From Williamsia faeni (GTDB taxonomy: Bacteria > Actinomycetota > Actinomycetes > Mycobacteriales > Mycobacteriaceae), in the NCBI GenBank assembly GCA_003202005.1, contig QJJF01000001.1:1147099-1211098 (forward strand): a stretch of 64,000 bases of DNA. Direction: 5' to 3'. The notes under the pieces are model-generated. The model was given only the letters and a program-made list of their open reading frames with translations. It was not told the origin of the DNA and made no database searches. This document shows, one piece after another, positions 6,190-27,676 of the stretch; within the stretch, counting starts at the first letter, position 1; each line of letters opens with the position of its first letter. The translations under genes and the position numbers were made by a program.

Positions 6190-6253
6190 ACGGACCGCAT
6201 CTGGTACATGTTCAAGACCCTATTCGATATTGAGGCCGACCATACAAGTATTT

Positions 6254-6271
6254 CAATCCTTGTAAGGATTG
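6254..6271. promoter_or_regulatory. operator-like palindrome, copy 1
   Basis: CAATCCTTGTAAGGATTG is an inverted repeat with 8-bp arms around GT. It lies 65 bp upstream of the GntR start. A leftward TTGAAA (-35-like, 6256-6251) overlaps its end. Closely similar palindromes occur at 16284 and 26689. Confidence 0.7.
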
Positions 6272-6353
6272 CCTGGAACATGGACCGTTGCGGCTTGAAC
6301 GATCCTCTGACGTGCGGCCACGATGAACGGACCTGCGAACCCGGTCCCAGCCG

Positions 6354-7550
6354 CTATAGCGGCAGTTCGACCTCGGCGGTGCAGGTCACCAGGGTGGTGC
6401 CGTCCTGACTGGTGAGCTTGAGTTTGATCTGAACGAGCGGCACGCCCCATTCGGACTCGACCTTCTTGTCGACGACTTCGGCATCGAAGTAGGTGACGTC
6501 ACCCTCGAAGGCGGGCCCGCGGAAATCGGCTTTGGTGTGCCGGACCATACCGTCGTGGCCGGCCCAGTTCGCGAGATAGTCGGTGCACCAGGCACCCATC
6601 GTCGCGCCATAGCCGTAGGCGCGGGCCATACCGACCTCACCGGCCTTGTCGGCGTCGATGTGGCCGCGCGAGGGACCGACATACAACCCGTCACGCTTGC
6701 GCGGATCGATCTTGGCGCCCTCTTCGTCATACCCGAACCCATCGGTCCAACCCGGGTCCTGGTAGATCCAGGGATCGTCGACACCTTCGGGCGCAACCCA
6801 TTCGGATGTGCCCCAGATGTTGAAGACGAACGCCCGATACTCGGTGGTGAACGAGGCGATGCTGTGCGGGCCGATCACCCGGCGGTGGAGCTTGTCACCG
6901 ATGTTGACCTCATCGAAATGTGGTGAGATACCGAGTCGATTGGACATAAGCCACTGATGTCGCAGCTCTTCGACTTCGATCAGTTCGTCATTGGTCCACT
7001 TCTTGAGGGAGTCGACCTGGTTGTCGTACATGCCGCGCTTGGTGGCCTCGGCCGACAGATAGCGGATGGCGGTGGAACGCTCCTTGGCGACCAGCGAGCC
7101 ATGCTGGTTGGTGTGGACGGTATCGCCGTGGGAGAACATCGTCGGTCCGGCGAACTTCGTGTCGGTGACTTTGTAGCCGTGAAAGCGTCTCTCTTGGAAC
7201 AACTTGTCACCTGGCCGAACCGGTGTCCCGTAGAACCACCACTCTTCGCCGCCGAAGATCAGGTGACTTTCGGGAATGTATCCGACGCAGGCCGGTTGTG
7301 CACCATGACCGAAATCCAGACCCACTGCGATGGACTGTGGTGCGACGAGTCCGCCGAACTTGCTGTTGCGAGCGAACTCCTGGTCCCAGTGCAGGGGATT
7401 GGGATTGTCCATTGCCATCACCCATCGGCGGATGTCGGAGGTGCTGCAGGGATCCCAGAGTTGGCCGCCACCAACCAGTTCGCCGACGCGATGGTCGACG
7501 TCGGTCAGGTCGAGCTGGACAGTTTCAGGTTCGGTTTCACTGGTGGTCAT
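6354..7550 (-). CDS. FAS1-like (MaoC-type) double hot-dog acyl-CoA dehydratase/hydratase
   Basis: The 398-residue product has two hot-dog domains. The N-terminal one carries a hydratase-2-like motif MDNPNPLHWD (Asp48, His54) followed by FGGLVAPQ; the C-terminal one (about 240-398) contains the MGAWCTDYLANWAGH segment. The family hydrates or dehydrates enoyl-/3-hydroxyacyl-CoA. Spacing between Asp and NP-x-H differs by one residue from classical MaoC, as in other FAS1-like dehydratases. It is the last gene of the eight-gene leftward operon. Confidence 0.75.
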   Translation of the reverse strand: MTTSETEPETVQLDLTDVDHRVGELVGGGQLWDPCSTSDIRRWVMAMDNPNPLHWDQEFARNSKFGGLVAPQSIAVGLDFGHGAQPACVGYIPESHLIFGGEEWWFYGTPVRPGDKLFQERRFHGYKVTDTKFAGPTMFSHGDTVHTNQHGSLVAKERSTAIRYLSAEATKRGMYDNQVDSLKKWTNDELIEVEELRHQWLMSNRLGISPHFDEVNIGDKLHRRVIGPHSIASFTTEYRAFVFNIWGTSEWVAPEGVDDPWIYQDPGWTDGFGYDEEGAKIDPRKRDGLYVGPSRGHIDADKAGEVGMARAYGYGATMGAWCTDYLANWAGHDGMVRHTKADFRGPAFEGDVTYFDAEVVDKKVESEWGVPLVQIKLKLTSQDGTTLVTCTAEVELPL

Positions 7551-7640
7551 GTGCGCTCCTTGTTCAGCGGATGGGCGTCATTGATAGACGAATCTTGGTC
7601 TTGTTCTTTCGGATGGCTGCTCACCAATGGTTTGACAACT

Positions 7641-8567
7641 TCAACCGACGCGAGCGTCGCGCTCGGTGGCAATCGCGAAACTCTTGGTGATGTGATCCTT
7701 GTGGGCAGAGGGAACGGGCGGAAGAATCCATGGATTGTCAGTCGCGCGGATTGCATCGATCTGTTCGCCGATCTCGTCGATCGTCCATGAGGGCTGGTAC
7801 ACGCCCGGGGTCTCTGCGATGAATGCCCGGGCCACCCGGCCGGCGATCGATACGAGCATTTCCCCTGTGATCGAACAGGATTCGTGCGCGAGCCACCCCA
7901 CCGCAGGCGCCGCCAGTTCCGGGCCCATGGGTGGGTAGGCGGACGTGTCGATACCTTCGGCCAACCTGGTCACGGCCGCGGGAACGATGACGTTGGATGT
8001 GACGCCGTACTCGGCGCCCTCGAGGGCCGCCACATTGGAGAGCCCGATCACGCCCGCCTTCGAGGCGGCGTAGTTGGCGACCCGGTGATTGCCGTAGATG
8101 CCGCCAATGGACGAAGTCAGCACGACCCGGCCGTAACCGGCTTCGCACATCAGCGGAAATGCGGGCCGAACCACATGGAACGCGCCCCGGAGATGGACGT
8201 CGAGAACCGCGTCGAAGTCCTCGTACGTCATCTCCCTCAACGACCCATAGCGGCTATTGCCGGCATTGTGGATGAGGATGTCAAGGCGGCCGTAGCGATC
8301 GAGAGCGGTGTCGATGATCGCCTGGCCACCTTCGGCAGTTGCGACGGACTCGGTGCAGGCGACCGCATCGCCGCCGGCGGCCTTGATCTCTCGTACCACC
8401 TCTTCCGCGGGGCCCCGGTCGGCGGTTTCACCGTTGATGGCAACGCCCGCATCGTTGACGACGACCCTTGCACCCTTCGATGCCAGGAGCAGGGCGTAGG
8501 CACGCCCCAAACCCCTTCCTGCCCCGGTGATCACGGCGACGCGATCATCGAATCTGAGTTCAGGCAT
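7641..8567 (-). CDS. SDR family oxidoreductase, multifunctional-enzyme (HSD17B4) type
   Basis: Classical Rossmann SDR with cofactor motif TGAGRGLG, NAG at HNAGN, catalytic Ser in SSIGG and YAASK. It has about 308 residues and a C-terminal extension of about 60 residues (SWTIDEIGEQ...), as in the dehydrogenase part of peroxisomal multifunctional enzymes acting on 3-hydroxyacyl-CoA. The ATG overlaps the upstream monooxygenase stop by one base (TGATG), implying translational coupling. A GTG one codon earlier is possible. Pairing with the downstream dehydratase suggests beta-oxidation-like steps. Confidence 0.8.
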   Translation of the reverse strand: MPELRFDDRVAVITGAGRGLGRAYALLLASKGARVVVNDAGVAINGETADRGPAEEVVREIKAAGGDAVACTESVATAEGGQAIIDTALDRYGRLDILIHNAGNSRYGSLREMTYEDFDAVLDVHLRGAFHVVRPAFPLMCEAGYGRVVLTSSIGGIYGNHRVANYAASKAGVIGLSNVAALEGAEYGVTSNVIVPAAVTRLAEGIDTSAYPPMGPELAAPAVGWLAHESCSITGEMLVSIAGRVARAFIAETPGVYQPSWTIDEIGEQIDAIRATDNPWILPPVPSAHKDHITKSFAIATERDARVG

Positions 8568-10393
8568 CACTTGTCGAGCACCAGACCTTCCAGCTCGCCG
8601 GTGTCGCGCCAGGCCTGGAGCAGGTCGGACAGTTCATAGAATCCACCCCAGAAGGGCTCACCGAGGAACGACCGACCGTTCGGTTCGCCTTCGCTGTTGT
8701 AGTAGCCGGGCGTGCATTCGGACACGAAAGTGCTGTTGTCGACGGTGTTCTCCCGGATTGTCGAAATCCAGCCCTCTTCCGCTTCCGACGTCGGCTCGAC
8801 GAACGTGGCCCCGCGTTCCTGCGCCGCCTTGATGATGTACGCGATGTGGTCCGCTTGCTGTTCGAACATCAGTGTTGTCGATGCAGTGACACCGCCCTGG
8901 ATGAACCCGGTGGCGAAGTGGTTGGGGAAACCGTGCGCCATGATGCCATGCAAGGTACGAAAACCTTTGCCCCAGTGGTCGTATAGCGATGTACCTTCGC
9001 GACCGGCGAAGGGTTTGATGTCGAACTGGCGGTCGAGGGCGGTGGTGATCTCGAAGCCGCTGGCGAACACGATGCAGTCGAACTCGTGCTCGACGCCGCC
9101 GACGATGATGCCCTTCTCGGTGATGCGTTCGACGCCCTTTGTTTCCGATACGTCGACAAGCGTGACGTTGTCCCGGTTGAAGGTCGGCAGGTAGTCGTCG
9201 TTGAAGACCGGACGCTTACACATGTTGCGGTAGTAGGCCTTCAGGGTTTCCGCGGTCTCCGGGTCCTCGACGACCGCCTCGACGCGTTGGCGGAGGCGCT
9301 CCATCGCCCGATAGTCCTCGTCCTCCTTGAGCTCCATGAACCTCGCCGGATCGGCCAGCTCTGCCCAGGCACCTCTTTCCTCGATCTTTGCGGCCATGTT
9401 GCGGGCCACCTCGGTCCAGCCGTCGCAGATGAGATCGGGTTCGCCGGGGGAGTAGAACGAGAACGCGGCATTGTGGAAGTTGCGCTGCCTCGCAGCGCGC
9501 CAGCCCGGTTCGAGGCTCTTGACCCATTCGGGATCGGTCGTGGAATTGGCCCGCTCGAAGATGTACGACGGTGTCCGCTGGAAGACGGTCAGATGCTTCG
9601 CGCCTTTGGCCAGATGTGGGATCGCCTGGATCCCGCTCGATCCGGTGCCGATGACAGCGATCCTCTTGTCGGAGATCTTGTCGAGCCCGCCGTGCAGATC
9701 TCCGCCGGTGTAGTCGAAATCCCAACGGGCAGTGTGGAAGGTGTGGCCCTTGAACTCTGTGATCCCCGGGATGCCCGGAAGCTTCGGCCGGTTGTAGGGA
9801 CCCTGGGCCATGACCACGAAGCGGGCACGGATCTCGTCGCCCCGGTTGGTGCGGATTTGCCAGCGGTTGATGTCCTCATCCCATTGCAGCGACTGGATCA
9901 GGGTGTGGAAGATGGCGTTGTCGTAGAGACCGAAATGCTTTCCGATGCGCTGGGCGTGTTCGAAACACTCGTCGCCGTGGGAGAACTTCTCCTTCGGCAT
10001 GTAGCCGGTCTCTTCGAGCAGCGGAAGGTAGCAGTACGAATCCGAGTCGATCTGAATGCCGGGGTAGCGGTTCCAATACCAAACACCACCGAAGTCGCCG
10101 CCCAGTTCGATCATCCGAAAGTCGGTGACGCCGGCCTGCTGCAGTCGCTGCGCGGCAATGAGTCCACAGAAACCACCTCCGAGAATCACAACCTCGATGT
10201 CGGCAGTGATCGGTTCGCGGGGCTCGACCGGCATATGGGGGTCACCCTCATAGAACTGGGCGAAGTCGTTGTCGGCCTCCAGGTACTGCTGCTGTCCGTC
10301 GGGCCGGATGCGCTTGTCGCGCTCGAGCAGGTACTTCTCGCGAAGAGCTCGCTTGTCGACGTCGGGCGTCTGGGTGGGTGCACAGTTCTGCAT
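8567..10393 (-). CDS. Baeyer-Villiger type flavin monooxygenase
   Basis: The 608-residue product has an FAD motif GGGFCG (about 72-77), an NADPH motif GTGSSG (249-254), and between them the type I BVMO fingerprint FKGHTFHTARW (214-224). It inserts oxygen next to a ketone to give an ester or lactone, using NADPH and O2. It resembles the cyclohexanone/steroid monooxygenase branch with an extra N-terminal segment. The chosen ATG has AAAGGA at good spacing; a longer frame exists but lacks conserved sequence. The preceding gene is the Rieske oxygenase. Confidence 0.88.
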   Translation of the reverse strand: MQNCAPTQTPDVDKRALREKYLLERDKRIRPDGQQQYLEADNDFAQFYEGDPHMPVEPREPITADIEVVILGGGFCGLIAAQRLQQAGVTDFRMIELGGDFGGVWYWNRYPGIQIDSDSYCYLPLLEETGYMPKEKFSHGDECFEHAQRIGKHFGLYDNAIFHTLIQSLQWDEDINRWQIRTNRGDEIRARFVVMAQGPYNRPKLPGIPGITEFKGHTFHTARWDFDYTGGDLHGGLDKISDKRIAVIGTGSSGIQAIPHLAKGAKHLTVFQRTPSYIFERANSTTDPEWVKSLEPGWRAARQRNFHNAAFSFYSPGEPDLICDGWTEVARNMAAKIEERGAWAELADPARFMELKEDEDYRAMERLRQRVEAVVEDPETAETLKAYYRNMCKRPVFNDDYLPTFNRDNVTLVDVSETKGVERITEKGIIVGGVEHEFDCIVFASGFEITTALDRQFDIKPFAGREGTSLYDHWGKGFRTLHGIMAHGFPNHFATGFIQGGVTASTTLMFEQQADHIAYIIKAAQERGATFVEPTSEAEEGWISTIRENTVDNSTFVSECTPGYYNSEGEPNGRSFLGEPFWGGFYELSDLLQAWRDTGELEGLVLDK

Positions 10394-10449
10394 GGTGAGT
10401 CCTTTGGGGTCAGTGGTGGCGAAGTCTTGAAGTCGGGATGAGGTGTCGG

Positions 10450-11832
10450 TCAGCCGAGGTCTGTCGGCGCACCGGTACCCATGTACATCGCAAGGTTGTG
10501 GTGCAGATTCACGATGCTGCGCTCGCGATACGGATTCGGCTTGGGACCGGTGAAACCGCGTGCCTTCATGCCTTTCTGGACCGCAGACATGTTGTAGAAG
10601 TCTTGTGGCAGAACCGTTCTCCACGCCGCGTCATCTGCGGGGGTGTATTCCCATGTGGTCTCGGGCTCCTCGCCTTCCGGGAAGAGCTCGTAAACGGCGG
10701 CTTCGAAGATGCATTTGTCGGGGTCGTCGCCGTAGGGGCGGGCGCTGTAGCAGAGCATGTTGTTCAGCGCGTGTCCGATCTGGAAGTTGGGGAAGATCTG
10801 CCAGGCCGTGCCACTCTTGGCGATCACCTCGGGATCCACGGTTGGCCAGATCACGCCGCGGTTGGCATCGTCCTTCATGGCCGAATCGAGCCAGTGCCGC
10901 AGCACTTCTCCCGGCGGAGTCCCTTCGGGCAGTTCGTCGACCAGACGTGCGGCGGCGTCGACCAGCGTCCGGGTGGTGTTGGTATTCGCATTCTCCCACG
11001 TGAAGTTCTGCAACTCGGTGGTCGCGATCCGCACATCGGGACCGTCGGCGACGCGCAACTTCGCCTGATTTTCTTCCATACCCTTGGGTGCGTCATAACC
11101 GATGTTGCTGTGCCTGCCCTGGTATCGGGACCACCCGAGGAAACTGCCGAACTCCCGAAACTCGGGGTGTGTGTACGGCACGTGGTAGGTCTCCATGAAT
11201 GCTTCGAGAGCGACCTTCCAATTACAGTCGAAGACAAGCCATTTGCGCCACCGATAGCGCATGTTCTCGAGCTGGAACGGATCGAGGAGGCTCGCTGCGG
11301 GTTCGAGGTAACTCCGCAGCGGCTCGCAGTCGGGGTCCATGTTGATCCACACCCAGCCACCCCAGGTGTCGACCTGGACCGGCGTCAGTCGAGTCTTGTT
11401 CTCGGTCAAACCGGTTGGCCAGTCGGCCTTTTCGGCCGCCCAGGTGTTCTTGCCCTCGAGGTCGTAGGTCCATCCGTGGAATCCACAGACAAAGCTCCGG
11501 CAATTGCCACGGGCTTCATGTTCGCCGGGGGGTGTGTCGACCAGTCGCCGACCCCGGTGTGAGCAGACGTTGTGGTACGCGCTGATGCTGTCGGGTCCGG
11601 TGCGGGTGATGATGATCGAGTCATCAAGAATGTCGTAGGTGAGATAGTCGCCGACTTTGGCGATCTCTTCTACCCGGCCAACCTGTTGCCACACCTTGGA
11701 CCACAGCAATTCGCCTTCGGCTCGGGCATAGTCTTTCGAGATATACGCGTCGACGCCGATGGTGAGCGGGGTCGTAGCCGGCTCTCCTGTCGCATCAGGT
11801 GGTTTGTGGGCGCTTTCGACGGTGCTGGTCAT
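10450..11832 (-). CDS. Rieske non-heme iron ring-hydroxylating oxygenase, alpha subunit
   Basis: Rieske [2Fe-2S] ligands are C90-S-H92 and C116-G-F-H119. The catalytic domain has EAFMETYHVPYTHP with iron ligands His217 and His222. The length of 460 residues fits a terminal oxygenase large subunit. No small subunit, ferredoxin or reductase gene lies in the block, so electrons must come from elsewhere or the enzyme is an alpha-only type. The ATG has GGGAGA upstream. A longer frame is unlikely to be coding. Confidence 0.9.
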   Translation of the reverse strand: MTSTVESAHKPPDATGEPATTPLTIGVDAYISKDYARAEGELLWSKVWQQVGRVEEIAKVGDYLTYDILDDSIIITRTGPDSISAYHNVCSHRGRRLVDTPPGEHEARGNCRSFVCGFHGWTYDLEGKNTWAAEKADWPTGLTENKTRLTPVQVDTWGGWVWINMDPDCEPLRSYLEPAASLLDPFQLENMRYRWRKWLVFDCNWKVALEAFMETYHVPYTHPEFREFGSFLGWSRYQGRHSNIGYDAPKGMEENQAKLRVADGPDVRIATTELQNFTWENANTNTTRTLVDAAARLVDELPEGTPPGEVLRHWLDSAMKDDANRGVIWPTVDPEVIAKSGTAWQIFPNFQIGHALNNMLCYSARPYGDDPDKCIFEAAVYELFPEGEEPETTWEYTPADDAAWRTVLPQDFYNMSAVQKGMKARGFTGPKPNPYRERSIVNLHHNLAMYMGTGAPTDLG

Positions 11833-11922
11833 GGTAGTTCTCCCATGTGAAAAATGTTGCTCCAGTGGGTGATCAAGGCGCGGAACAGATTTGATGCCGA
11901 GGATTCGATGGTGGCGTGAGCA

Positions 11923-11955
11923 TCTTCGGGTCACACACAAGGCGTGACCCGAAGA
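11923..11955 (-). terminator. intra-operon hairpin with 12-bp perfect stem
   Basis: TCTTCGGGTCAC and GTGACCCGAAGA pair perfectly around a 9-base loop. It lies between the stop of the CMD-family gene and the Rieske gene on the leftward transcript. No U-tract follows. It may attenuate, partly terminate, or act as an RNA-processing/stabilising element inside the operon. Confidence 0.5.
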
Positions 11956-11966
11956 GCCTCGCCCTA

Positions 11967-12557
11967 CTACGCGCCCAACCGAATCTCGCCCTCGTCGAAG
12001 TGACTGAGAAGATCATCGTCGAGTTCGACCCCGAACGAGCGCAGCGCCATTGCAACCATCGCGTAGGTTCCGACAGTGAAGACGACGTCCATGAATTGCT
12101 TGTCATCGAACTCTGTGGAGAGCACTTTCCAGGTGCCATCCGTGATGATGCCGTTGTTGAGCAGCTCATCGGTCGCATCGAGGAGTGCGGATTCGAACGG
12201 TGACCACCCGGTTGCTGCGGATCCGAGCGCGATGTCGTCGATCTCTGAATCAGTGACTCCGGCCGAACGCGCCAGGAGAACATGCTGCGCATACTCATAC
12301 GCGCAGTTCCTCCGATTCGCGACCCGCAGGATCATGATCTCCCTATGCCGGATCGACAACGATGAACCGGCGAGCAGGTGTTGATTGAAGGTGATGAACG
12401 GCTTGGCCAGACCCGGGTATCGAGCCAGAGTGCCGAGTAGGTTGGCACCCTTGGGTCGGTCGTCGCTGTCGCTGGCCACCGACGAACGGAAGCCGGCGAA
12501 GAAGTCGGTGATCTCGGTGGACCATTCGTCGACGGGTAGCGGTGGAATTCGTGACAT
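11967..12557 (-). CDS. carboxymuconolactone decarboxylase / AhpD-like family protein
   Basis: The all-helical 196-residue protein has the CMD segment LSIRHREIMILRVANRRNCAYEYAQH (quoted here in two parts: LSIRHREIMILRVANR and NCAYEYAQH). The first Cys and the His of the usual CxxCxxH peroxidatic motif are present, but the second Cys position is not. It is therefore unlikely to be a classical AhpD peroxidase and may be a decarboxylase or structural family member. Its place in the catabolic operon points to substrate degradation. Confidence 0.75.
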   Translation of the reverse strand: MSRIPPLPVDEWSTEITDFFAGFRSSVASDSDDRPKGANLLGTLARYPGLAKPFITFNQHLLAGSSLSIRHREIMILRVANRRNCAYEYAQHVLLARSAGVTDSEIDDIALGSAATGWSPFESALLDATDELLNNGIITDGTWKVLSTEFDDKQFMDVVFTVGTYAMVAMALRSFGVELDDDLLSHFDEGEIRLGA

Positions 12558-12568
12558 GTCCTACCCTC

Positions 12569-13312
12569 CTAGGTGTTGCGTCCGCCGTTGACGCCGACCA
12601 GTTGTCCGGTGATGTAGCCCGCTTCGTCACTGGCCAAGAAGGAACACGCCGCGGCGATGTCCTCCGGAGTTCCGGCCCGACCCACCGGTGTCCGCTCGAT
12701 CTGCTGCTCCACAGATATCAGTCCCTGACTCTCGTGGTCCCGCATCATCGGAGTATCGATGAAGCCCGGTGGGATCGCGTTGACGGTTATCCCATACTTT
12801 GCGAACTCGAGCGCCAGCACCTTGGTCAGTCCGTTCACGGCTGACTTCGACGACACGTAAGCCGCCATTTGCGCCACACCACCATGCGTGCTCGACGAAG
12901 AGATGTTCACGATCCGGCCCCACCCGGCTTCGATCATGTGTGGAATGACGGCCTGGCAGCAGTCGAAGGTTCCGGTGAGATTGATCGCGTGCACCAGCTC
13001 CCACAAGTCCGGGGTCACCTCGAGGGTGGGTCCGGCGACGGTCTTCCCGGCACTGTTGACAAGAATCTGCGGTGCGCCGAGTCGGGTCTTCACCTCGTCG
13101 ATCCCCGCGTGGATTCCGGCTCGGTCGGTCACGTCGACCTGGACGCCGATTGCGCTTCCGCCGTCGGCCGTTATCTGTTCTGCAGCAGCTTTCGCGGATG
13201 CGCCGTCGCGATCAAAGAATGCGACAGCGTTACCGTCCGCGGCGAGACGACGCCCGATGGCGAGTCCGATGCCTGAACCGCCGCCCGTGACGACGGCAAC
13301 CCGCGGGCTCAT
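12569..13312 (-). CDS. SDR family oxidoreductase (FabG-like)
   Basis: The 247-residue classical SDR has TGGGSGIG, NSAG, catalytic Ser in NISSSSTHGG and YVSSK, and a VNGG end. It is likely an NAD(P)-dependent alcohol or 3-hydroxyacyl dehydrogenase. Its ATG overlaps the stop of a 25-codon ORF upstream (ATGA), and it lies 11 bp from the CMD-family gene, so it belongs to the same leftward operon. Confidence 0.85.
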   Translation of the reverse strand: MSPRVAVVTGGGSGIGLAIGRRLAADGNAVAFFDRDGASAKAAAEQITADGGSAIGVQVDVTDRAGIHAGIDEVKTRLGAPQILVNSAGKTVAGPTLEVTPDLWELVHAINLTGTFDCCQAVIPHMIEAGWGRIVNISSSSTHGGVAQMAAYVSSKSAVNGLTKVLALEFAKYGITVNAIPPGFIDTPMMRDHESQGLISVEQQIERTPVGRAGTPEDIAAACSFLASDEAGYITGQLVGVNGGRNT

Positions 13313-13386
13313 TTCGTGCCTCGGGCCGACGTGGACTGGCGGCGGGAACGGGTATCTGTGTGGTCGAACATCAGCGGCTCAGCCAT
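13309..13386 (-). CDS. possible 25-residue small ORF coupled to the SDR
   Basis: An ATG preceded by AGAGGAAA at 8-base spacing opens a 25-codon frame that ends in TGA overlapping the SDR ATG (ATGA). The peptide is MAEPLMFDHTDTRSRRQSTS followed by ARGTK. It is basic in its C-terminal half. Good ribosome-binding site and coupling support translation; it may be a leader that sets SDR expression or a real small protein. No family is recognised. Confidence 0.4.
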   Translation of the reverse strand: MAEPLMFDHTDTRSRRQSTSARGTK

Positions 13387-13445
13387 GGCTGGGGTTTCCT
13401 CTCGATTGCGGGTTGGGGTGCGTATCGCGTAAAAAACAGTCACTG

Positions 13446-15146: not shown

Positions 15147-15198
15147 GGTAATTCCTTCATGTATCGACTTCTGGACCAGTTCCTTTGACATCCGGCGG

Positions 15199-18434: not shown

Positions 18435-18465
18435 CGGCGATTTCGGCCAGGTAGGGGAGCACATC

Positions 18466-19428
18466 ATGCGTGGACAAGTACGTCGTTGGATAGTGCCGGT
18501 AGGGAGCTTCCTGATCCTCATCGCGCTCGTCACCATTGCGGTATTCCTACTGCTGGAACTGATCCCCGGTGATCCGGTGGACGGGTTGGTGCCCTCGGGG
18601 GCCAGTGAGGAGATGCGGCAGCACGCTCGAGTGCTGTACGGACTCGACCAACCACTGTACGAGCGTTACCTCACTTGGGTGGGCGGCATCATGCACGGGG
18701 ACTTCGGGCGCTCGTACACCACCGGGATGCCGGTGTTGACCGCGGTGGGCGAAAGAACCCCGGTGTCATTGGAACTGGCAGCCCTCGCCATGGTTGTCGC
18801 GTTGGTGATCTCGATCCCGGTGGCGGTGTGGTCGGCTTACCGGCCGCAGGGTGTCATCGATCGCATCGCGACGGCGCTGACGTCCGCGACACTTGCGGTC
18901 CCATCGTTTGTACTGGGGATTCTGCTGGTGTATGTCTTCGCGGTGAAGATGCATGTGCTCCCTGTCCTGGGGTGGGTGGCGTTTGCCGAGGACCCGGTAC
19001 AGCATTTCCAATACCTGATTCTGCCGGTGCTGACCCTGGCTGCCGGCGAATGTGTGCTGTTCACACGCCTTCTCAAAGGTGACATGCTGGCGACCCTGCA
19101 ACAGGACCATGTCATGTCGGCGCGGGCCCGGGGTCTGCCCACGCGGCGGATTCTCATCAGGCACTCGCTGAAGCAGTCGTCCTTCTCGTTGGTCACGGTG
19201 TCCGGAGTTGTGATCGGTCGACTCATCGGCGGCACCGTGATCGTCGAGTCGATCTTCGCGATCCCAGGCCTGGGCACGCTTGTCGTCACCTCGATCCAGT
19301 CCCGCGACTTCATCGTCGTCCAAGCCATAGTGCTGTTGAGTGCCCTGCTGTACCTGGTGCTCAACGGCCTCGTCGATGTCACCTATCCGTGGCTCGACCC
19401 CCGAGTGAGAAAGGTGCGCACGTCGTGA
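18466..19428 (+). CDS. ABC transporter permease (DppB-like)
   Basis: The 320-residue protein has six predicted membrane helices. It has the N-terminal helix and the IPGDP/YGLDQPLYERYLTW pattern of OppB/DppB permeases, and an EAA loop around ARARGLPTRRILIRHSLK that contacts the ATPases. The ATG has a GGGGAG ribosome-binding site. The frame opens 29 codons earlier inside the spacer. Its end overlaps the next gene by four bases (GTGA). Confidence 0.9.
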   Translation: MRGQVRRWIVPVGSFLILIALVTIAVFLLLELIPGDPVDGLVPSGASEEMRQHARVLYGLDQPLYERYLTWVGGIMHGDFGRSYTTGMPVLTAVGERTPVSLELAALAMVVALVISIPVAVWSAYRPQGVIDRIATALTSATLAVPSFVLGILLVYVFAVKMHVLPVLGWVAFAEDPVQHFQYLILPVLTLAAGECVLFTRLLKGDMLATLQQDHVMSARARGLPTRRILIRHSLKQSSFSLVTVSGVVIGRLIGGTVIVESIFAIPGLGTLVVTSIQSRDFIVVQAIVLLSALLYLVLNGLVDVTYPWLDPRVRKVRTS

Positions 19429-20330
19429 CCGAAACTATCGGGCAGAATTTGAGCGCAGTGGCGCCTATGGCGGTGCCCGCGGAACAGGCACCACAACGTC
19501 CATCCAAAAGACGTGGCCGCCGGCGTGCGGTCGGTGCGTGCGCGGGTGCGGTCTGGCTGGGTCTGATGATATTTGCGGCGATCACCGCCGATTTGCTGCC
19601 GCTGCCGGATCCGGCCAAGATCGGCGACGAGTTCAGCGCGGTGCCGTTCTCCTCCTGGGAGCACGTGCTGGGCACTGATTCGCTCGGACGGGATGTGTTG
19701 TCCCGCTGCATATATGGTGCGCGCGTGTCGATGATCGTGGCGATCGGCAGCACACTGATCGCCATGGTGATCGGTGTGACCTGTGGACTGGTCGCCGGCT
19801 ACTTCCGTGGTCCGGTCGATCGTGCTCTGTCCTTGGTCATAAATTTTCTGCTGTCTTTCCCGGCACTCATCTTTCTGATCGCTCTTGTCGCCGCGATGGG
19901 TCCGAGCCTGACGACATTGCTGATCGGTCTGTCCCTGCTCGGAATCCCGAACTTCGCCAGAGTGGCACGGGCGAACACAATTGCATTTGCCGATCGGGAG
20001 TTCGTCACCGCTGCAAAGGCTCTCGGCGCCGGACCATTTCGTGTCCTGCGTCGCGAATTGCTCGCCAACGTCATGCTGCCGGTGATGTCCCTCGCTCTGG
20101 TGGTCATGGCGACCCTGGTCGTCGCCGAGGGAAGCTTGAGCTTCCTCGGGCTCGGTATCCCGCCACCGACACCGAGTTGGGGTGGCATGCTCGCTGCCGG
20201 TCGCGAATCCCTCAGCACAGATCCCCATCTGATGTTCGTGCCCGCGGCGTTCTTTTTCCTCACGGTGTATTCCTTCAATGTCCTTGGCGACTGGGTGCGG
20301 GGTCGTATCGGAAGAGAGTCGGCCCTATGA
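19425..20330 (+). CDS. ABC transporter permease (DppC-like)
   Basis: The 301-residue protein has a Pro/Arg-rich N-terminus, one leading helix, the LGTDSLGRDVLSRCIYGARVS block of OppC/DppC permeases, and an EAA loop at AKALGAGPFRVLRRELLANV. It pairs with the DppB-like permease to form the membrane channel. GTG start with AAAGGTG upstream overlapping the previous stop; its own stop overlaps the next start (ATGA). Confidence 0.9.
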   Translation: MTETIGQNLSAVAPMAVPAEQAPQRPSKRRGRRRAVGACAGAVWLGLMIFAAITADLLPLPDPAKIGDEFSAVPFSSWEHVLGTDSLGRDVLSRCIYGARVSMIVAIGSTLIAMVIGVTCGLVAGYFRGPVDRALSLVINFLLSFPALIFLIALVAAMGPSLTTLLIGLSLLGIPNFARVARANTIAFADREFVTAAKALGAGPFRVLRRELLANVMLPVMSLALVVMATLVVAEGSLSFLGLGIPPPTPSWGGMLAAGRESLSTDPHLMFVPAAFFFLTVYSFNVLGDWVRGRIGRESAL

Positions 20331-21439
20331 GTATCGAGACAGTGGCCCCGAAGGCCGCAGACAACAGGATGATCGTCGGTACACCCCTGCTCGAGGTCCG
20401 GAATCTTCAGGTCTGGTTCGACACTCCGCGCGGCGATGTCCGCGCGGTCGGGGGAGTGGATCTCGACATCGAGGCCGGACGCGCTGTTGGCATCGTGGGG
20501 GAGTCCGGATCCGGAAAGTCGGTGCTCTCACGCGCGATCATGAGAATCCTGGCCCGCAATGCGAACGTTCTGCCCGGGAGTGAGATCCGTTTCAATGGAA
20601 TGGATCTCACCAAGGTCTCACCGAAGAAGAATAAGCACCTATGGGGCGTGGACCTTGCCATGGTGTTCCAGGATCCGATGACGTCGCTGACCCCGGTGTT
20701 GACAATTGGTTCGCAGCTGACCGAAACCCTTCGCTACCACCTGCACTTGAGCAGAGCTGCTGCGAAGGAAGAGGCAATCCGACTGCTGGGACTCGTCGGG
20801 ATCCCGGAGCCGGCGACCCGTTTCGATCAGTATCCGCACAACCTGTCGGGTGGTATGCGCCAGCGTGTGACCATCGCCCTCGCAATATCGTGCTCACCGA
20901 AACTGCTGATCGCCGACGAGCCCACAACTGCGCTCGATGTCACCGTTCAACAGCAGATCCTCGACCTCCTCTCCGATCTGCAGAGAAAGTCCGGAATGGG
21001 TCTGATGCTCATCACCCACGACCTGGGTGTGGTCGCCGGCCGCACTGACACGGTTGCTGTGATGTACGCGGGGCGGATCGTCGAAAAGGCGCCGACCCCC
21101 GAACTTTTCGAACGTATGCGGCACCCGTACACGCGGGCGCTGGTCGACGCGATCCCCAGATTGTCTCATCCGGGTCAGATGGATCTGCCTGCTCTTCCGG
21201 GTCGTCCACCGGTGGTGATCGACCCGCCGCCAGGCTGCGCGTTCGCACCGCGTTGTCCATCAGCGCAGCCGAAGTGTCTGGTTCAGACGCCGGTCCTGGA
21301 ATCGACGCCCGGTACCGATCATTCGGTGGCGTGCTTCTTCCCGCTCGGTACGCCTGCCGGAGATGCTGCGCGTCAGGCGAACGCGGCCGCCGGAACCACC
21401 GCGGCCGGAACTGTCTTCTACACAACGGATGTGATCTGA
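20327..21439 (+). CDS. ABC transporter ATP-binding protein (DppD-like)
   Basis: The 370-residue ATPase has Walker A GESGSGKS, a Q-loop at [10 protein letters not shown], signature LSGGMRQR, Walker B LLIADEPT and an H-loop His. The C-terminal oligopeptide/dipeptide domain carries [14 protein letters not shown], a Cys pattern seen in Dpp/Opp ATPases. It powers the importer with the following DppF-like subunit. Translationally coupled to the permease. Confidence 0.92.
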
Positions 21440-22456
21440 ATGGCCGGCAGTGGAACCGCGCACCTGCGCGCTGACGACGATGTGATACTCGGTGTCCGAA
21501 ACCTCACCGTGGAGTACCGAGGAAAGGGTGACGAACGCGTCTACGCCGTCTCTGACATCAGCTTCGACGCCCGGCGCGGTGAGACCGTGGGTCTGGTCGG
21601 CGAGTCCGGCTGCGGCAAATCCAGTGCGGCGAAGTCGATCATGCAGCTCCCGCCACCCACCTCCGGCTCGGTGCAAGTGGATGGAGTCGAGATCGTCGGG
21701 TTGCGTGGCAGTGAGATGCGCCGGCAACGTAGCAAGCTGCAAATGATCTTCCAGGACCCGATATCCTCGCTAAACCCGTTGAGACGGGTCGAGGATATCG
21801 TCGCCGAGGGGCTGCGTATCCAGGGCGATCTGAGCAAGGCAGAGATCATCACACGGACTCGCGCGATGATCGAACGTGTCGGACTCGATCCGGAGACGGC
21901 TTCCGACCGTCGCCCACACGAGTTCTCCGGAGGGCAATGCCAGCGCATCTCGATCGCGCGGGCAATGGTGTTGGACCCGGAGCTTGTCATCTGTGACGAA
22001 CCGGTGTCGGCACTCGATGTCTTGGTTCAAGCCCAGATCATCAACCTCCTCAAGGAGATGAAACAGCGATATCAGCTCACACTGGTGTTCATCGCACACG
22101 ATCTCGCGGTGGTCAAAAATCTCAGTGACCGCGTTGTTGTGATGTACCTCGGAAAGGTGTGCGAGGTGGCGGCCACCGAGGAGCTGTTCTCATCTCCCGT
22201 CCATCCGTACACCCGCGCGTTGATCGACTCGGTGCCCGAACCCGACCCCACTGCGGTGGTTTCCCAGGCGCAACTGGAAGGTGACCTACCTTCGCCGATG
22301 AACCCGCCCAGCGGCTGCCGTTTCCGGACGCGTTGTCCGTCGGCCCAGGAGCGTTGTGCGCTCGAAGAACCGGAGATCCGGGAGATTCGGCCCGGACACT
22401 TCGCTGCTTGTCATTTCCCGCTTGTCGATGGTCCCGTGGATAAGGTCCTCGTCTAG
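21440..22456 (+). CDS. ABC transporter ATP-binding protein (DppF-like)
   Basis: The 338-residue ATPase has Walker A GESGCGKS, Q-loop FQDPISSLNP, signature FSGGQCQRI (Cys where most have an amino acid such as R/K), Walker B LVICDEPVSALD and a C-terminal oligo_HPY domain with CRFRTRCPSAQERC. It starts directly after the previous stop. It completes a five-gene import operon that ends at a strong hairpin. Confidence 0.92.
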   Translation: MAGSGTAHLRADDDVILGVRNLTVEYRGKGDERVYAVSDISFDARRGETVGLVGESGCGKSSAAKSIMQLPPPTSGSVQVDGVEIVGLRGSEMRRQRSKLQMIFQDPISSLNPLRRVEDIVAEGLRIQGDLSKAEIITRTRAMIERVGLDPETASDRRPHEFSGGQCQRISIARAMVLDPELVICDEPVSALDVLVQAQIINLLKEMKQRYQLTLVFIAHDLAVVKNLSDRVVVMYLGKVCEVAATEELFSSPVHPYTRALIDSVPEPDPTAVVSQAQLEGDLPSPMNPPSGCRFRTRCPSAQERCALEEPEIREIRPGHFAACHFPLVDGPVDKVLV

Positions 22457-22475
22457 GACCACTGAGCCCGGCAGA

Positions 22476-22502
22476 GGCACCACCGTGATCGACGGTGGTG
22501 CC
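22476..22502. terminator. bidirectional hairpin terminator
   Basis: GGCACCACCGT and ACGGTGGTGCC form an 11-bp perfect stem with a GATCG loop, followed by TTT. It lies between the convergent ATPase and CoA-transferase genes. Confidence 0.85.
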
Positions 22503-22521
22503 TTTGCCGCGTCAGGACGGG

Positions 22522-23772
22522 TCAGATGATGCCGGCCGCGTGAAGTGCTTCGCGTTCAGCGGTACCGAGCCCGAGCAGGCCGCCGTAAACGCTGTCGTTG
22601 TGCTCACCGAGTGCGGGACCGAGGGACCGGATGCCTCCCGGGGTCCCCGAAAGGTGGGGCACGACATTCTGCATCGGAAACTCACCGAGCTGATCATGAA
22701 GCAGTCGCACGATGGCGCCGCGCGCCTTGAAGTGCGCGTCGCCGAGCATGTCTGCGGCCGTGTAGATCCGGCCGGCGGGGATCCCCGCCTCATGTAGCGC
22801 TTCGAGGAGTTCGGCCGACTGCCGTCCGGCAGTCCATTCTCCGATGAGTTTGTCGAGTTCCTCAGAGTTCTGACCGCGCGCTTGATGTGAGTGGTAACGC
22901 GCGTCAGCCGCGATCTCATCGCGTTCCATCACGTCGCACAGACGGTTGAAAATCGTGTCCCGGTTGGCCGCGATCAGGATTTCGGCACCATCGGCGGTGG
23001 GGTAGACGTTGCTGGGTGCGACGCCGGGAAGTACCGACCCGGTGCGTTCGCGCCTGGAGCCGGCGATGGTCCATTCCGGAATCACGGCTTCCATCATCGC
23101 CAGAACGGCTTCGTAGATCGCGGAGTCGACGACCTGCCCGCGCCCGCTGCGTTCGCGCGACAGTAGTGCCATGACCGCACCGAATGCGGCGAACATCCCG
23201 GTCAACGAGTCACCGAGCGAGATGCCGGTGCGGGCCGGAGGCCGATCCGAGTTTCCGGTGGTATAGCGGATTCCGCCCATCGCTTCACCGATGGAGCCGA
23301 ATCCGGCGCGGGTCGAGTACGGACCGTCCTGCCCGTACCCGGTGACGCGGACCATCACGATCCGCGGATTGATCTGCGAGAGTGTGTCGTAGCCGAGATT
23401 CCAGCGCTCCAGCGTGCCGGGTCGGAAGTTCTCGACCAGCACATCGGCTTCGGCGACCAGAGCTCGTACCAGCTCCTGGCCCCGGGCCTCCCGCAAATTG
23501 CACGTGATGGACCTCTTGTTTCGCGCGATGATCGGCCAGGTGAGCGAGATGCCGCCTTCTGAGCGACTTCCCCACTGGCGCATCGGATCCCCATGCTCGG
23601 GGTCCTCGATCTTGATGACTTCTGCCCCAAAGTCTCCCAGCAGCTGACCGCAGAAGGGCCCGGCGATCAGCGAACCCAACTCGAGGACCCGGTAGCCGGC
23701 CAGCGGGCCCTGAAGGCGGTTGTCTGGCGCCGCCGAATCTGCCTGTGGGCGGTCGTCTTCTGAGCCGTTCAT
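22522..23772 (-). CDS. CaiB/BaiF family (class III) CoA-transferase
   Basis: The 416-residue protein has the family start YRVLELGSLIAGPFCGQLLGDFGAEVIKIE, quoted as two parts: VLELGSLIAGPFCGQLLG and DFGAEVIKIE. It is followed by NKRSITCNLR and ENFRPGT. It likely moves CoA onto a carboxylate substrate, so it may replace a CoA ligase, which the block lacks. In the segment usually reading RPGFD the sequence is RAGFGS (Gly159), so the canonical catalytic Asp is not at that place. ATG start with GAGATGG-type spacing. It is last in a leftward three-gene set. Confidence 0.85.
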   Translation of the reverse strand: MNGSEDDRPQADSAAPDNRLQGPLAGYRVLELGSLIAGPFCGQLLGDFGAEVIKIEDPEHGDPMRQWGSRSEGGISLTWPIIARNKRSITCNLREARGQELVRALVAEADVLVENFRPGTLERWNLGYDTLSQINPRIVMVRVTGYGQDGPYSTRAGFGSIGEAMGGIRYTTGNSDRPPARTGISLGDSLTGMFAAFGAVMALLSRERSGRGQVVDSAIYEAVLAMMEAVIPEWTIAGSRRERTGSVLPGVAPSNVYPTADGAEILIAANRDTIFNRLCDVMERDEIAADARYHSHQARGQNSEELDKLIGEWTAGRQSAELLEALHEAGIPAGRIYTAADMLGDAHFKARGAIVRLLHDQLGEFPMQNVVPHLSGTPGGIRSLGPALGEHNDSVYGGLLGLGTAEREALHAAGII

Positions 23773-23822
23773 CTCACCATCTCTGCTGTTGGTTCGGTTG
23801 TGTGTGGGTCTTGTCGGTGGGA

Positions 23823-25817
23823 TCACAGGTTGCGGGCAGCCTGCTCGCCTTCCCAGATGGCGTTGAAGATTCGCCGCGGCGCGTGCGCATCTCCGACCAG
23901 CTGAACATCGACGCCGCTGCCATCGAGTTCGCGGGCCAGTGAATCGTTCGCGGTATTGCCGAGAACGAGTACGACGGCATCGACGTCGGTGAGCGTCGAT
24001 AGTTCTTGTGTATAGACATCTTTCAGGGTCACGGTGTCGCCGTCGATCTCGGTGATCTCAGTACCGGCGGTGAATGTCACTCCCGCCCTGCGCAGTTGAC
24101 CGAACGCGAACGGAAGGTCGTGGGCATCCGCGAACGCGTGCCCGAGCTGTGGGTATTGCGAGACGATATGCACCGGATGGCGTCGGCCGACCAGATACTC
24201 GGCGGTGACGAATGCTTGCCGGTCACCGGTGTCGTCGACGATCAGGACCCGATGAGGGATGTCGGCGCGTCCGGTGAGTATCTCCGCCGGTGTATAGACA
24301 TTCCACTGGTCTGAGCCGGGCAGGGGCGCGCCGGCAACCCACCGGTCGGGGTGGCGCGAGGTCCAGCCGTGCCGAATCGGCGTCGATCCGGTGGCGATCA
24401 CCACCGCGTCGAATTGCCCGATGAGATCATCCGCAGTCGCTCGGTGCCCGAGTGCAATCTTGACGTTACTCGCGACGAGTTGTGTTGTGAGCCAGTCGGT
24501 GACGCCCGACCACTCACCGTACGAGTCGGCCATCGCGATCAGACCGACCTGTCCGCCCAGCTCGGACTCCTGCTCGAAGAGCGTGACCTCGTGCCCGAGT
24601 TCGGATGCCGTCAGTGCCGCACGCAGACCAGCCGGTCCGCCGCCGACAACCGCGACCGTGCGCGACCGTCGTGTCCGGGTGTCGTCGTCGTGGAACGCTC
24701 GCTCCCGGCCGACTTTCGGATTGTGAATACAGGCCAGTGGACCTCGGGCGAACGAGGCAACACACCAATTGGAGCCGACGCAGGGTCGAATGGTGTCAGC
24801 ATGCCCATGCTGGGCCTTCTCCGGCCACCTCGGATCTGCGATGAGCTGGCGGGCCATGCCGACAAACTGTGCTTTGCCCGATGCCAGGATGTCTTCGGCC
24901 ATCTCTGGGGTGGTGATTCGACCGACCGCGACCACCGGCACCGAAACTGCACGGGTGATTGCGGTGGTGTCGGCGATCTCGTATCCGGCGGGCCGGGCAC
25001 CGGAGGTTCCGTAGATTTGCATGCGGTCCAGATAAGTACCCTGACTGGTCGAGATGTAATCGATGGCGCCCCAGCTCTCGACTTCAACGGCGATTTGTAC
25101 CCAGTCGGTATTGGTCAGCCCGTTTTCGGCATCACCGTCGCTGCTGTTGAGCCGAATTCCCAGAATTCGGTCCGCGGGTACGAGCTGTCGTATATCGTCG
25201 ACGATCCGCCGAACGATGCGCATCCGATTCTCGAAAGAGCCACCGTACTCGTCGGTGCGGTGATTGGTTGCCGGCGAGAGGAATTGACCGAGCAGATAGC
25301 CGTGGGCCAGCCCATGGACTTCGATCCCGTCGACCCCACCCTCGATCGCATACTCGGCCGCCCGCACGTAATGCGCTACCAGTTCATCGATCTCGCCGTG
25401 CGTCATCTCGTGTGGGATCTCGCGGTAGACCGTGTCGGGCACAGCACTCGGTGCCCAGGTCGGCAGGCGACTGATGATCCCGTCGGTCTGCCTTCCCCGA
25501 TGCCACAGTTGTGCGAGCAGGAGAGTCCCGTGTGGATGGACGGCTTCTGCCACGGTGCGGTAGCTGTCGACCACGGCCGGGTCGTACGCCAGGATGACAC
25601 CCCGACGTGGTTGGGTCGTCGGATGAACTGCCATGGCCTCCATGGTGATAACGGCTACGCCGCCGCGAGCTCGTTCCGCATAGTAGTCGGCGCTGGCATC
25701 CGCAAAGGTGCCGTCGGTGGAGAATTCCGTGGCGTGCGCCGTCATCCAGACCCGGTTTTTTGCAGTGCGTGGTCCGAGGGTGATCGGCGAGAACAACGTG
25801 GGGTAATCGTGTGGCAT
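23823..25817 (-). CDS. NADH:flavin oxidoreductase / 2,4-dienoyl-CoA reductase-like Fe-S flavoenzyme
   Basis: The 664-residue protein has an old-yellow-enzyme FMN barrel (about 1-340) with the HGLAHGYLLGQFLSP signature, an Fe-S segment, then FAD/NAD Rossmann domains starting VAVVGGGPAGLRAA. This is the architecture of dienoyl-CoA reductase and trimethylamine dehydrogenase. The Fe-S ligands read C346-x2-S349-x2-C352-x10-C363, with Ser where the family has the second Cys. ATG 25817 has GGAG at seven bases and is preferred to ATG 25829. Likely reduces an enone or dienoyl-CoA intermediate. Confidence 0.85.
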   Translation of the reverse strand: MPHDYPTLFSPITLGPRTAKNRVWMTAHATEFSTDGTFADASADYYAERARGGVAVITMEAMAVHPTTQPRRGVILAYDPAVVDSYRTVAEAVHPHGTLLLAQLWHRGRQTDGIISRLPTWAPSAVPDTVYREIPHEMTHGEIDELVAHYVRAAEYAIEGGVDGIEVHGLAHGYLLGQFLSPATNHRTDEYGGSFENRMRIVRRIVDDIRQLVPADRILGIRLNSSDGDAENGLTNTDWVQIAVEVESWGAIDYISTSQGTYLDRMQIYGTSGARPAGYEIADTTAITRAVSVPVVAVGRITTPEMAEDILASGKAQFVGMARQLIADPRWPEKAQHGHADTIRPCVGSNWCVASFARGPLACIHNPKVGRERAFHDDDTRTRRSRTVAVVGGGPAGLRAALTASELGHEVTLFEQESELGGQVGLIAMADSYGEWSGVTDWLTTQLVASNVKIALGHRATADDLIGQFDAVVIATGSTPIRHGWTSRHPDRWVAGAPLPGSDQWNVYTPAEILTGRADIPHRVLIVDDTGDRQAFVTAEYLVGRRHPVHIVSQYPQLGHAFADAHDLPFAFGQLRRAGVTFTAGTEITEIDGDTVTLKDVYTQELSTLTDVDAVVLVLGNTANDSLARELDGSGVDVQLVGDAHAPRRIFNAIWEGEQAARNL

Positions 25818-25861
25818 ATGAGGCTCCATCGCAGGGCAGAACAAGGACGAATGTCGGGAGG

Positions 25862-26617
25862 TCAGTGCTGCGCGAGCAGTTGTCCGAATCCCTCGAACTG
25901 ATCGGTGATCCCGTTGCTGCGCAATGCATGCCAGTAGGTGGCGGTATTGACCGCTATGACCGGGAGGCCAAGCTGCTGCTCGGCCTCGGCGGCGATGCGG
26001 CCGGCGCACATGTTGGCACCGAATTGAACAATGGCACGCGGTCGGTTCTCGGCGAGCTTGGTGAAACCCTGCTGCACGGTTTCCCTTGTGGTGTGGGCGA
26101 TTTGGACTGCGCTCGGGCATCGCAGGTGGATGGCGTCCTGCAATTGGTAGCCGCAGCTCTCGACGAACGTCCGCAAGTGACCCTCGGACACCGGCTGGTA
26201 AGGGGTCAGCAGCGCTATCGGGCCGTCCTCGACGCCGCTGGCACGCAGTGCGGCCGGAATCGCATCGCCCGCATGGACAAGCCGGAGTTTGTCACCGAAC
26301 TTCGCGCGCAGTCGTTGCTGGATTCCCTCACCGGCTTCGGGGTCGCCGTATACGGCTTCGATGGACACTCCGAGGACGATGCAGTCCGGCTCGCAGGTCA
26401 GGACCCGCTCGACGGCCTCGTCGAGACCGCGGTCGATATCGCGAACCAGCAGTTCGAAGTCGTTGTCGTTGTTGGTGATCCGGTCGGGGATGTGAATACG
26501 CCCGATGTGGTTGGTGACGCCTCGTGGTCGCATGTCGTCGTATTCGGGTTGTACGACGGTGTTCACCGAGGGGGTGACGACTCCCAGCTTCAGTCTCCAG
26601 CCCAGCGCGTCGGTCAT
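25862..26617 (-). CDS. Asp/Glu racemase superfamily protein (maleate isomerase / arylmalonate decarboxylase-like)
   Basis: The 251-residue protein opens with LGVVTPSVNTVVQPEYDDM, characteristic of maleate isomerase-like members. The second catalytic Cys region is present as FGANMC (Cys204), but the first site reads LGVSIE (Val84) instead of a Cys. A one-Cys arrangement is known in arylmalonate decarboxylase, which keeps only one of the pair. It may thus be a decarboxylase or isomerase. AAGGAGAT precedes the ATG. First gene of the leftward set under operator copy 3. Confidence 0.75.
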   Translation of the reverse strand: MTDALGWRLKLGVVTPSVNTVVQPEYDDMRPRGVTNHIGRIHIPDRITNNDNDFELLVRDIDRGLDEAVERVLTCEPDCIVLGVSIEAVYGDPEAGEGIQQRLRAKFGDKLRLVHAGDAIPAALRASGVEDGPIALLTPYQPVSEGHLRTFVESCGYQLQDAIHLRCPSAVQIAHTTRETVQQGFTKLAENRPRAIVQFGANMCAGRIAAEAEQQLGLPVIAVNTATYWHALRSNGITDQFEGFGQLLAQH

Positions 26618-26688
26618 CGGATCTCCTTGAATCGTTGTAGTTCGTGGTTGGTTACACCATCTCTCTCTATTGCTACACCGTTTTCTCG

Positions 26689-26706
26689 TTATCCTCATAA
26701 GGATTG
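26689..26706. promoter_or_regulatory. operator-like palindrome, copy 3
   Basis: TTATCCTCATAAGGATTG keeps the ATCCT/AAGGAT core of copies 1 and 2. It lies between the divergent racemase and TauD genes, and its right end overlaps the -35 of the rightward promoter. Confidence 0.7.
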
Positions 26707-26732
26707 CAAGAATTGATAGGACGGCATATATT
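26704..26732 (+). promoter_or_regulatory. sigma-70-type promoter for the TauD gene
   Basis: TTGCAA (26704-26709) and TATATT (26727-26732) are separated by 17 bp. The -35 hexamer lies in the last bases of operator copy 3, so binding there should repress it. The predicted start is about 55 bp before the ATG. Confidence 0.6.
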
Positions 26733-27625: not shown

Positions 27626-27676
27626 TGTCCGCGATGACCAAATCGGACAATCCCGCCGACCTCAGAAGGAATTGAA

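Follow-up and report, generated by a model that had tools for sequence, protein, structure and literature searches.

Regulators of the FadR subfamily of the GntR family, among them E. coli FadR, PdhR and LldR, combine a GntR winged helix-turn-helix (HTH) with an FCD-type helical effector domain, and their palindromic operators lie near their own and catabolic genes. In actinobacteria, the steroid-breakdown regulons of KstR and KstR2 also consist of short palindromes over large catabolic clusters with similar enzyme classes. Here we analysed a 64,000-nucleotide stretch of Williamsia faeni (contig QJJF01000001.1, positions 1,147,099 to 1,211,098 of the forward strand), referred to as the window, in which a palindromic element recurs in a catabolic gene cluster beside a regulator gene of the GntR/FCD type, unlike KstR and KstR2, which are TetR proteins. 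The comparative evidence made it very likely that these palindromes are the operators of the adjacent FadR-subfamily, FCD-domain GntR regulator. For the FadR subfamily, PMC4494728 gives an operator consensus of TKGT/ACMA, in which the GT-AC gap is mostly 3 and in several groups 2 nt, with a preference for a G/C pair in the box where HTH position 28 is Arg; it also describes extra half-sites of GntR palindromes, which are weaker boxes 7-12 nt from the site centre, and subfamily members with sites outside the consensus, such as BioR (TTATMKATAA). E. coli NanR is another FCD protein, which reads GGTATA direct repeats; according to PMC8012715, its multi-repeat operator is bound cooperatively by three dimers, and Arg59, Arg69, Arg73 and Asn89 are the probable base contacts.

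The three palindromes were confirmed at 6254, 16284 and 26689, and their gene context, one before the GntR gene and two in divergent gaps, was as described in a sequence-only reading of the stretch. That reading had noticed no further copy in the window, and indeed a search with YWATCCTYRYAAGGATTG at up to 3 mismatches returned just these three places (6 matches on both strands), compared to a chance level of 0.09 on average and 2 at maximum in 100 shuffles of the window. Three places against 0.09 expected, together with the genome-wide pattern scan below, led us to reject chance as the origin of the palindromes. The looser core ATCCTNNNAAGGAT at up to 2 mismatches gave 10 window matches, 4 of them elsewhere, which is the chance level (mean 7.7). 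The sites and their predicted binder are:

6245..6271, minus strand: operator 1, half-sites CAATCCTTA, CAAGGATTG and AAATACTTG, 55 bp upstream of the GntR start; it is a candidate autoregulatory site, and its orientation by the third half-site gives the minus-strand reading.
16284..16310, plus strand: operator 2, half-sites CAATCCTCA, CAAGGATTG and CAAGGGTTG, in the gap from which the eight-gene leftward operon and the ABC importer diverge.
26689..26715, plus strand: operator 3, half-sites TTATCCTCA, TAAGGATTG and CAAGAATTG, in the gap from which the AMDase/OYE/CoA-transferase set and the TauD-SDR pair diverge.
5386..6189, minus strand: GntR-family regulator of 267 aa with GntR HTH and FCD domain (Pfam, AlphaFold model, Foldseek), the predicted binder of the three operators.

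The 18-bp palindrome proposed earlier is real, and it is part of a longer conserved element of about 27 bp with three abutting 9-bp half-sites, CAATCCTYA, YAAGGATWG and CAATACTTG. The third block is similar to the left half-site, and with respect to the right one it is everted. In an alignment of 79 distinct sites (80 in all) from 71 orthologue loci and the W. faeni genome, all nine positions of the third half-site were conserved (0.7-2.0 bits), six of them upstream of the -35 element, although the site logo and matrix were built after orientation by this half-site, which inflated the third block somewhat. In a test free of this bias, 80 sites were picked by ATCCTNNNNAGGAT alone and their flanking 9-mers (better flank) were scored with the half-site matrix. 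The mean score of the third half-site was +4.0 at zero spacing, compared to an average of 15.7 for the true arms, while flanks scored -18 to -29 at spacings of 1-21 and -26.2 (sd 1.5) at 22-49. The site matrix used 73 of the 79 distinct sites, and one column-shuffled null of it had 0 matches. The third half-site was also kept at sites before a propeller gene (L015-L018, L020, L030), where no gene lies on the -10 side. The third half-site is probably functional for the same GntR regulator.

The extra half-site recalls the weaker ones published for the FadR subfamily, but here it abuts the palindrome and is strongly conserved. Searched for the TKGT/ACMA boxes, the sites showed ATCCT-N4-AGGAT and no GT/AC boxes, and the earlier statement that they do not resemble the FadR core holds against the consensus given in PMC4494728. 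BioR offers a precedent for a subfamily site outside this consensus; its site differs from the present one, and so does its pathway, judged by gene content. The (GGTATA)3 direct-repeat operator of NanR was not found either, as the elements here combine one inverted and one everted half-site.

If the adjacent GntR protein binds the element, the two should occur together in other genomes. Regulator-positive genomes, defined by a match at E≤1e-80, numbered 42 of 401 family genomes, and 38 genomes without such a match were picked from the same genera as negatives. The motif was found in 32 of the 42 positive and in none of the 38 negative genomes (Fisher p 9e-14), and the backwards control of the pattern was absent from all 80. 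This result supports the earlier choice of the GntR protein as the natural candidate binder. The 71 orthologue loci contained 74 exact cores ATCCTNNNNAGGAT in 45 loci, with 0 occurrences of the reversed control in 1.33 Mb; one orthologue alignment covered 34 of the 71 loci. The 26 loci without an exact core comprised five with one-base variants (L031, L043, L062, L065, L070), 14 of Nocardia carnea type and seven mycobacterial ones. The site precedes the regulator gene itself in many orthologue loci, and elsewhere relatives of the ABC-importer, AMDase/TauD, Rieske/thiamine pyrophosphate (TPP) and acyl-coenzyme A (CoA) dehydrogenase operons. Regulator and operator with related clusters were observed in Williamsia, Gordonia, Nocardia, Rhodococcus, Aldersonia, Amycolatopsis, Actinomadura and Mycobacterium relatives.

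The association also extends to unlinked loci. In two genomes (G145 and G230) the palindrome is present in the gap between the AMDase and TauD genes, on contigs apart from the regulator. The regulator of G145 is on a different contig. G230 is fragmented and 75% complete, and lies outside the 80-genome set; it carries the motif without a regulator match at E≤1e-80, and a looser search recovered the regulator on another contig (C61:20522-21314), split into three pieces in different frames. At L141:10606 and L143:8935 the AMDase/TauD module, on contigs apart from the regulator, has the palindrome with a different third segment (ATGTATRG). On plasmid pUSK13_1 of Rhodococcus sp. USK13, cores lie before an ABC importer, between acyl-CoA-dehydrogenase and MDR genes and before the propeller gene, and a one-base core variant precedes a second importer. 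This cluster, with an oligopeptide-type importer and several palindromes, is on a 599-kb linear plasmid (NZ_CP069241.1; L147, L148) and has annotated transposases on both sides.

Among more distant regulators, seven mycobacterial relatives of 47-50% identity had no motif match at their loci. The six of them displayed have the recognition helix SLVSLREA rather than SYPS[IV]REA, and also LPPQAVL. Mycobacterial orthologues of other genomes have the palindrome with a different third segment; at L064 and L067-L069 a perfect or near-perfect palindrome CAATCCTTATAAGGATTG is directly before the start codon, and the third segment is CTAGTATTG or CTAGCATTG. In the N. carnea-type clade (L038, L046, L047, L050, L051, L054-L061, L066) the N-terminus of the regulator is altered (QHRVAQ, REAIRILE) and the autoregulatory site has drifted, with ATTGCAAT mostly as its best kept part. 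Before the propeller gene, this clade carries [CG]TATCCTTACAAAGATTGCAATACTT (three genomes read: G096, G243, G305).

In the 5.52-Mb W. faeni genome the core ATCCTNNNNAGGAT occurred seven times, three of them in the window, and its backwards control not at all. Three further sites (C1:553452, 573558 and 582899) belong to a second, related cluster at a distance of about 0.57 Mb. The seventh match (C1:1084402, L004) was dissimilar, apparently coding and without the rest of the element, and was taken as chance. A 15-base pattern of the whole element, allowing up to 3 mismatches, gave exactly six places at 0 mismatches and eight more at 2-3; its backwards control had 2 matches in the genome. At all six genomic sites the palindrome is followed by AANNNTTG (6/6). 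The earlier count of three is thus right for the window and misses half of the sites in the genome, and the scan for copies at unrelated loci, which had been suggested as a possible refutation, found all six in two related clusters.

The second cluster encodes its own GntR protein, about 79% identical to that of the window (78% in another comparison). The two paralogues share 36 of 37 residues at positions 34-70 and 145 of 188 in the effector part, and identity drops to 26-40%, over part or most of the length, for the GntR relatives that come next in this genome. Relatives of the Rieske, TPP, flavin monooxygenase, short-chain dehydrogenase/reductase (SDR) and TauD proteins are present in this cluster, and of the MaoC protein by sequence similarity only. 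Since the HTH/wing region is nearly identical, the paralogues should share operators, and both are likely to cross-bind them, while they may differ in effector. The sequence-only reading had proposed a single-regulator regulon. That the sites govern the surrounding operons is strongly supported by the comparative evidence, but "single" is doubtful because the same genome encodes a second GntR with nearly identical HTH/wing.

The position of the element suggests how it might act. Read on the opposite strand, the oriented site gives TTGCWA, 18 bp and TANNNT, so that the palindrome forms the spacer of a sigma-70-like promoter. Among the 79 sites that have a gene start on this side, 71 carry a complete TANNNT at a spacing of exactly 18 bp, compared to 5 of the 14 sites without such a start (p 3e-5, for rows that are not independent owing to descent). 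This table of 93 rows covered the window, the second cluster and 64 of the 71 loci (without L072, L073 and L075-L079), with sites of two core patterns and at least 7 of 11 matches to the third half-site. At window 16286 the gene caller overlooked the start of the leftward operon, which truly lies near 16032, and judging by position it probably also overlooked genes at L036 and L017. Of the 5 "no gene" cases, one or more, and probably three, are therefore misplaced. Some of the -10 misses were boxes one base off (L015, L030, L063, L080 and one L053 site). Two promoters were predicted in the window:

16275..16304, minus strand: predicted promoter of the eight-gene operon, -35 TTGCAA at 16304-16299, 18-bp spacer formed by the palindrome, -10 TACGGT at 16280-16275.
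26704..26732, plus strand: predicted TauD promoter, -35 TTGCAA at 26704-26709 overlapping operator 3, 17-bp spacer, -10 TATATT at 26727-26732.

Since operators sit in the -35/-10 spacer, repression by occlusion fits, and repression is the likely main mode of the GntR regulator.

The regulator protein itself agrees with the assignment. Its N-terminal part matched the GntR winged HTH (PF00392, E 4.7e-13, 49 bits with a cut-off of 27) and its C-terminal part the FCD effector domain (PF07729, E 4.4e-13, 50.2 bits with a cut-off of 24.3). The AlphaFold model had a mean pLDDT of 81.3 and an all-helical C-terminal domain, with the wing tip (69-72) below 50, and its Foldseek matches included NanR, CGL2915, VanR and FadR. 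The number of FCD helices, seven in the FadR group and six in the VanR group, is the dividing criterion; the model has seven over residues 81-243 plus a low-confidence terminal one, and the first of them is counted as linker or not by definition. NanR was the only PDB sequence match at E≤1e-5 (23% identity in the fold search), and the protein scored 68 bits with the NCBIfam NanR model, below its cut-off of 260. In the alignment with NanR as read, Arg59 corresponds to Glu38, Arg69 to Tyr48, Arg73 to Arg52 and Asn89 to Arg68; in the AlphaFold model Glu38 starts the second helix and Tyr48 the recognition helix. An HTH predicted to be without two of the base-reading NanR arginines is fitting for a site without GT/AC boxes. 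In the same alignment the metal-site aspartate of NanR is apparently an alanine (A152), and H156, H209 and H231 are kept.

We propose that an unliganded GntR dimer would read the inverted half-site pair (CAATCCT/AGGATTG), and that a second protomer or dimer would read the abutting everted third half-site CAATACTTG, whose occupancy would make binding cooperative and the site directional. Bound GntR would keep RNA polymerase out of the catabolic promoters by covering their -35/-10 spacer or their -35 region, and at site 1 it would repress its own gene. The effector would be a pathway acid or CoA-thioester, for example the cargo of the ABC importer; it would enter the FCD pocket and release the DNA, and the genes for import, ring-opening and β-oxidation would then be turned on together. 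The window GntR and its paralogue would bind all six sites, coupling the two clusters. More tentatively, and with slightly more doubt than confidence, the element might represent a new class of FadR-subfamily operator, a directional three-half-site element within the promoter read by an HTH with Glu and Tyr in place of two NanR arginines; the island regulator (see below) would then cross-control the resident paralogous cluster, and acquisition would have rewired both.

Besides the orientation bias in the logo, several observations weigh against this proposal. The motif pattern was missing from 10 of the 42 regulator-positive genomes; drifted forms explain some of these, and five are N. carnea-type genomes. 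Conservation over the orthologue loci is partly common descent. The AMDase/TauD sites of G145 and G230 are without the third half-site, the AMDase locus of G276 has no site, and the plasmid gntR of USK13 has no exact core before its own gene. In the window, operators 2 and 3 score lowest of the six by the matrix (37.5 and 37.8), with GGG and GAA as the centres of their third half-sites. Operator 1 is without a good -10 toward GntR, and on its other side, from which no gene starts, a -10 element is missing as well. Operator 3 is without a -10 on the AMDase side (GAAAAC).

Some of these points bear on a narrower alternative, in which the 18-bp palindrome alone is the GntR site and the third half-site is the -35 region plus an unrelated element. 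The TTG of the third half-site contributes to the TTGCWA -35, and the third half-site is lacking at the G145, G230 and mycobacterial orthologue sites. However, conservation covers all nine positions, most of them upstream of the -35, persists at propeller-gene sites whose -10 side has no gene, and the half-site matrix matched only at zero spacing, which leaves this alternative rather improbable. It is less probable still that GntR activates, or both represses and activates, with the third half-site as activator position. E. coli FadR can do both, the third half-site abuts the -35 upstream in spacer-type promoters, and at TauD the palindrome is just upstream of the -35 and overlaps it; in the spacer-type promoters, though, the palindrome lies between -35 and -10, as suits occlusion.

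Explanations without the GntR protein fared far worse. The palindrome could be bound by another regulator and merely lie near gntR, for example by the TetR protein encoded at 30260; that gene adjoins the catabolic block, and TetR family members commonly bind palindromes. But TetR relatives (E≤1e-50) showed no association with the motif, being present in 13 of the 32 genomes with the motif and in 15 of the 48 without it. Moreover, four congeners have the TetR gene between the amidotransferase gene and pknB without the catabolic block, and the second cluster, with three sites, had no TetR among 20 proteins scanned (of 28 open reading frames, ORFs). An operator of the neighbouring TetR was rejected, as TetR relatives do not track the motif, and any such other regulator is very improbable. 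Equally hard to credit is a role as RNA hairpin, be it an attenuator or a stability element, or as small mobile repeat instead of an operator. The RNA of site 1 gives a better fold than shuffled versions of it (z -4.5) and the other two less clearly so (z -2.1 and -0.9), but no T-run follows the three window sites, and the folds predicted for sites 1 and 3 leave the third half-site out of the hairpin. The copies keep a fixed position with respect to the predicted promoters, and the genome has only six of them, all in two clusters. Both forms were rejected on the copy distribution and the fold predictions.

The remaining genes of the block, classified by Pfam, NCBIfam and PDB searches, are:

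6354..16032, minus strand: eight-gene catabolic operon. Its first genes are an SDR (15199-16032) and a TPP enzyme (13446-15191), followed by an SDR, a CMD-family protein and a Rieske oxygenase, and finally a Baeyer-Villiger-type flavin monooxygenase (BVMO-type), an SDR and a MaoC/FAS1-type dehydratase.
16785..22456, plus strand: ABC importer of the oligopeptide type, with a substrate-binding protein, two permeases and two ATPases; the start codon of the first gene is uncertain.
22522..26617, minus strand: racemase-like set, comprising an AMDase-family protein (25862-26617), an OYE/FadH-type oxidoreductase (23823-26120, as called) and a class III CoA-transferase (22522-23826).
26795..28465, plus strand: TauD-family dioxygenase (26795-27625) and SDR (27677-28465).

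The first SDR of the operon has a probable ATG at 16032, and the ORF caller had stretched the gene to 16383. These searches gave enzyme classes only and no substrate identity. The TPP enzyme was about equally near to acetolactate synthase and oxalyl-CoA decarboxylase/2-hydroxyacyl-CoA lyase structures, and had 0 PDB matches at a stricter cut-off. The nearest solved relative of the BVMO-type enzyme by sequence is 5mq6, which we take to be a polycyclic-ketone monooxygenase, and for one acyl-CoA dehydrogenase of the second cluster the closest are 4x28 and Tcur3483, presumably steroid-type dehydrogenases. Because of the 5mq6- and 4x28-type relatives together with the MaoC-, OYE- and CoA-transferase-type enzymes, a bulky polycyclic terpenoid- or steroid-like acid is suggested as a possible substrate, at a little below even confidence.

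Among the open-licence papers listed, judged by titles and the beginnings of abstracts, none described the cluster, the regulator or the regulon, which is weak evidence of absence, and six spelled-out motif strings occurred in no open-licence paper; the regulator-operator pair is apparently undescribed so far. The gene-control circuit is directly testable, with regulator and switch occurring together in many soil actinobacteria, and one binding assay would annotate the pair in many genomes. As the motif flags regulon operons, unlinked ones included, it should help toward the pathway substrate. The presence of the motif with SYPS[IV]REA and its absence with SLVSLREA form a natural contrast for site choice by FadR-type helices outside the GT/AC code. 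The island described next and its paralogous cluster provide a test case for regulatory cross-talk after gene-cluster acquisition.

A TrpG/PabA-like amidotransferase gene and pknB are 26.2 kb apart here and 66-708 bp apart in eight congeners. The catabolic block is an insertion, which probably takes up the roughly 25 kb from this amidotransferase gene to a TetR gene:

5386..30006 (approximate): insertion, flanked by the glutamine-amidotransferase gene, which ends at 5364, and the TetR gene at 30260-30910.

In this region (5365-31600), the TrpG/PabA-like gene adjoins crgA, and the pknB-pknA-pbpA region is on the other side. The window TetR is probably resident and not part of the insertion, because a relative fills the same gap in four of the eight congeners (those with 672-708 bp); the DoxX gene between TetR and pknB is extra here compared to those four. 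AMDase relatives at E≤1e-60 were found in 6 of 401 family genomes including W. faeni, and in none of the eight congeners. In a tree of the GntR proteins (L074 left out; L041 and L077 without a called GntR), both paralogues fell in one clade with Williamsia and Gordonia (100/98), with the inner order unsettled (94/34). The window copy is thus an insertion with its own regulator, with origin by duplication and by transfer both compatible. In line with a foreign origin, though not proof of it, the third-position GC of the catabolic genes (5386-28465) was lower, mostly 0.70-0.78 with 0.81 for GntR, than the roughly 0.79-0.89 of most neighbours (FhaA 0.74).

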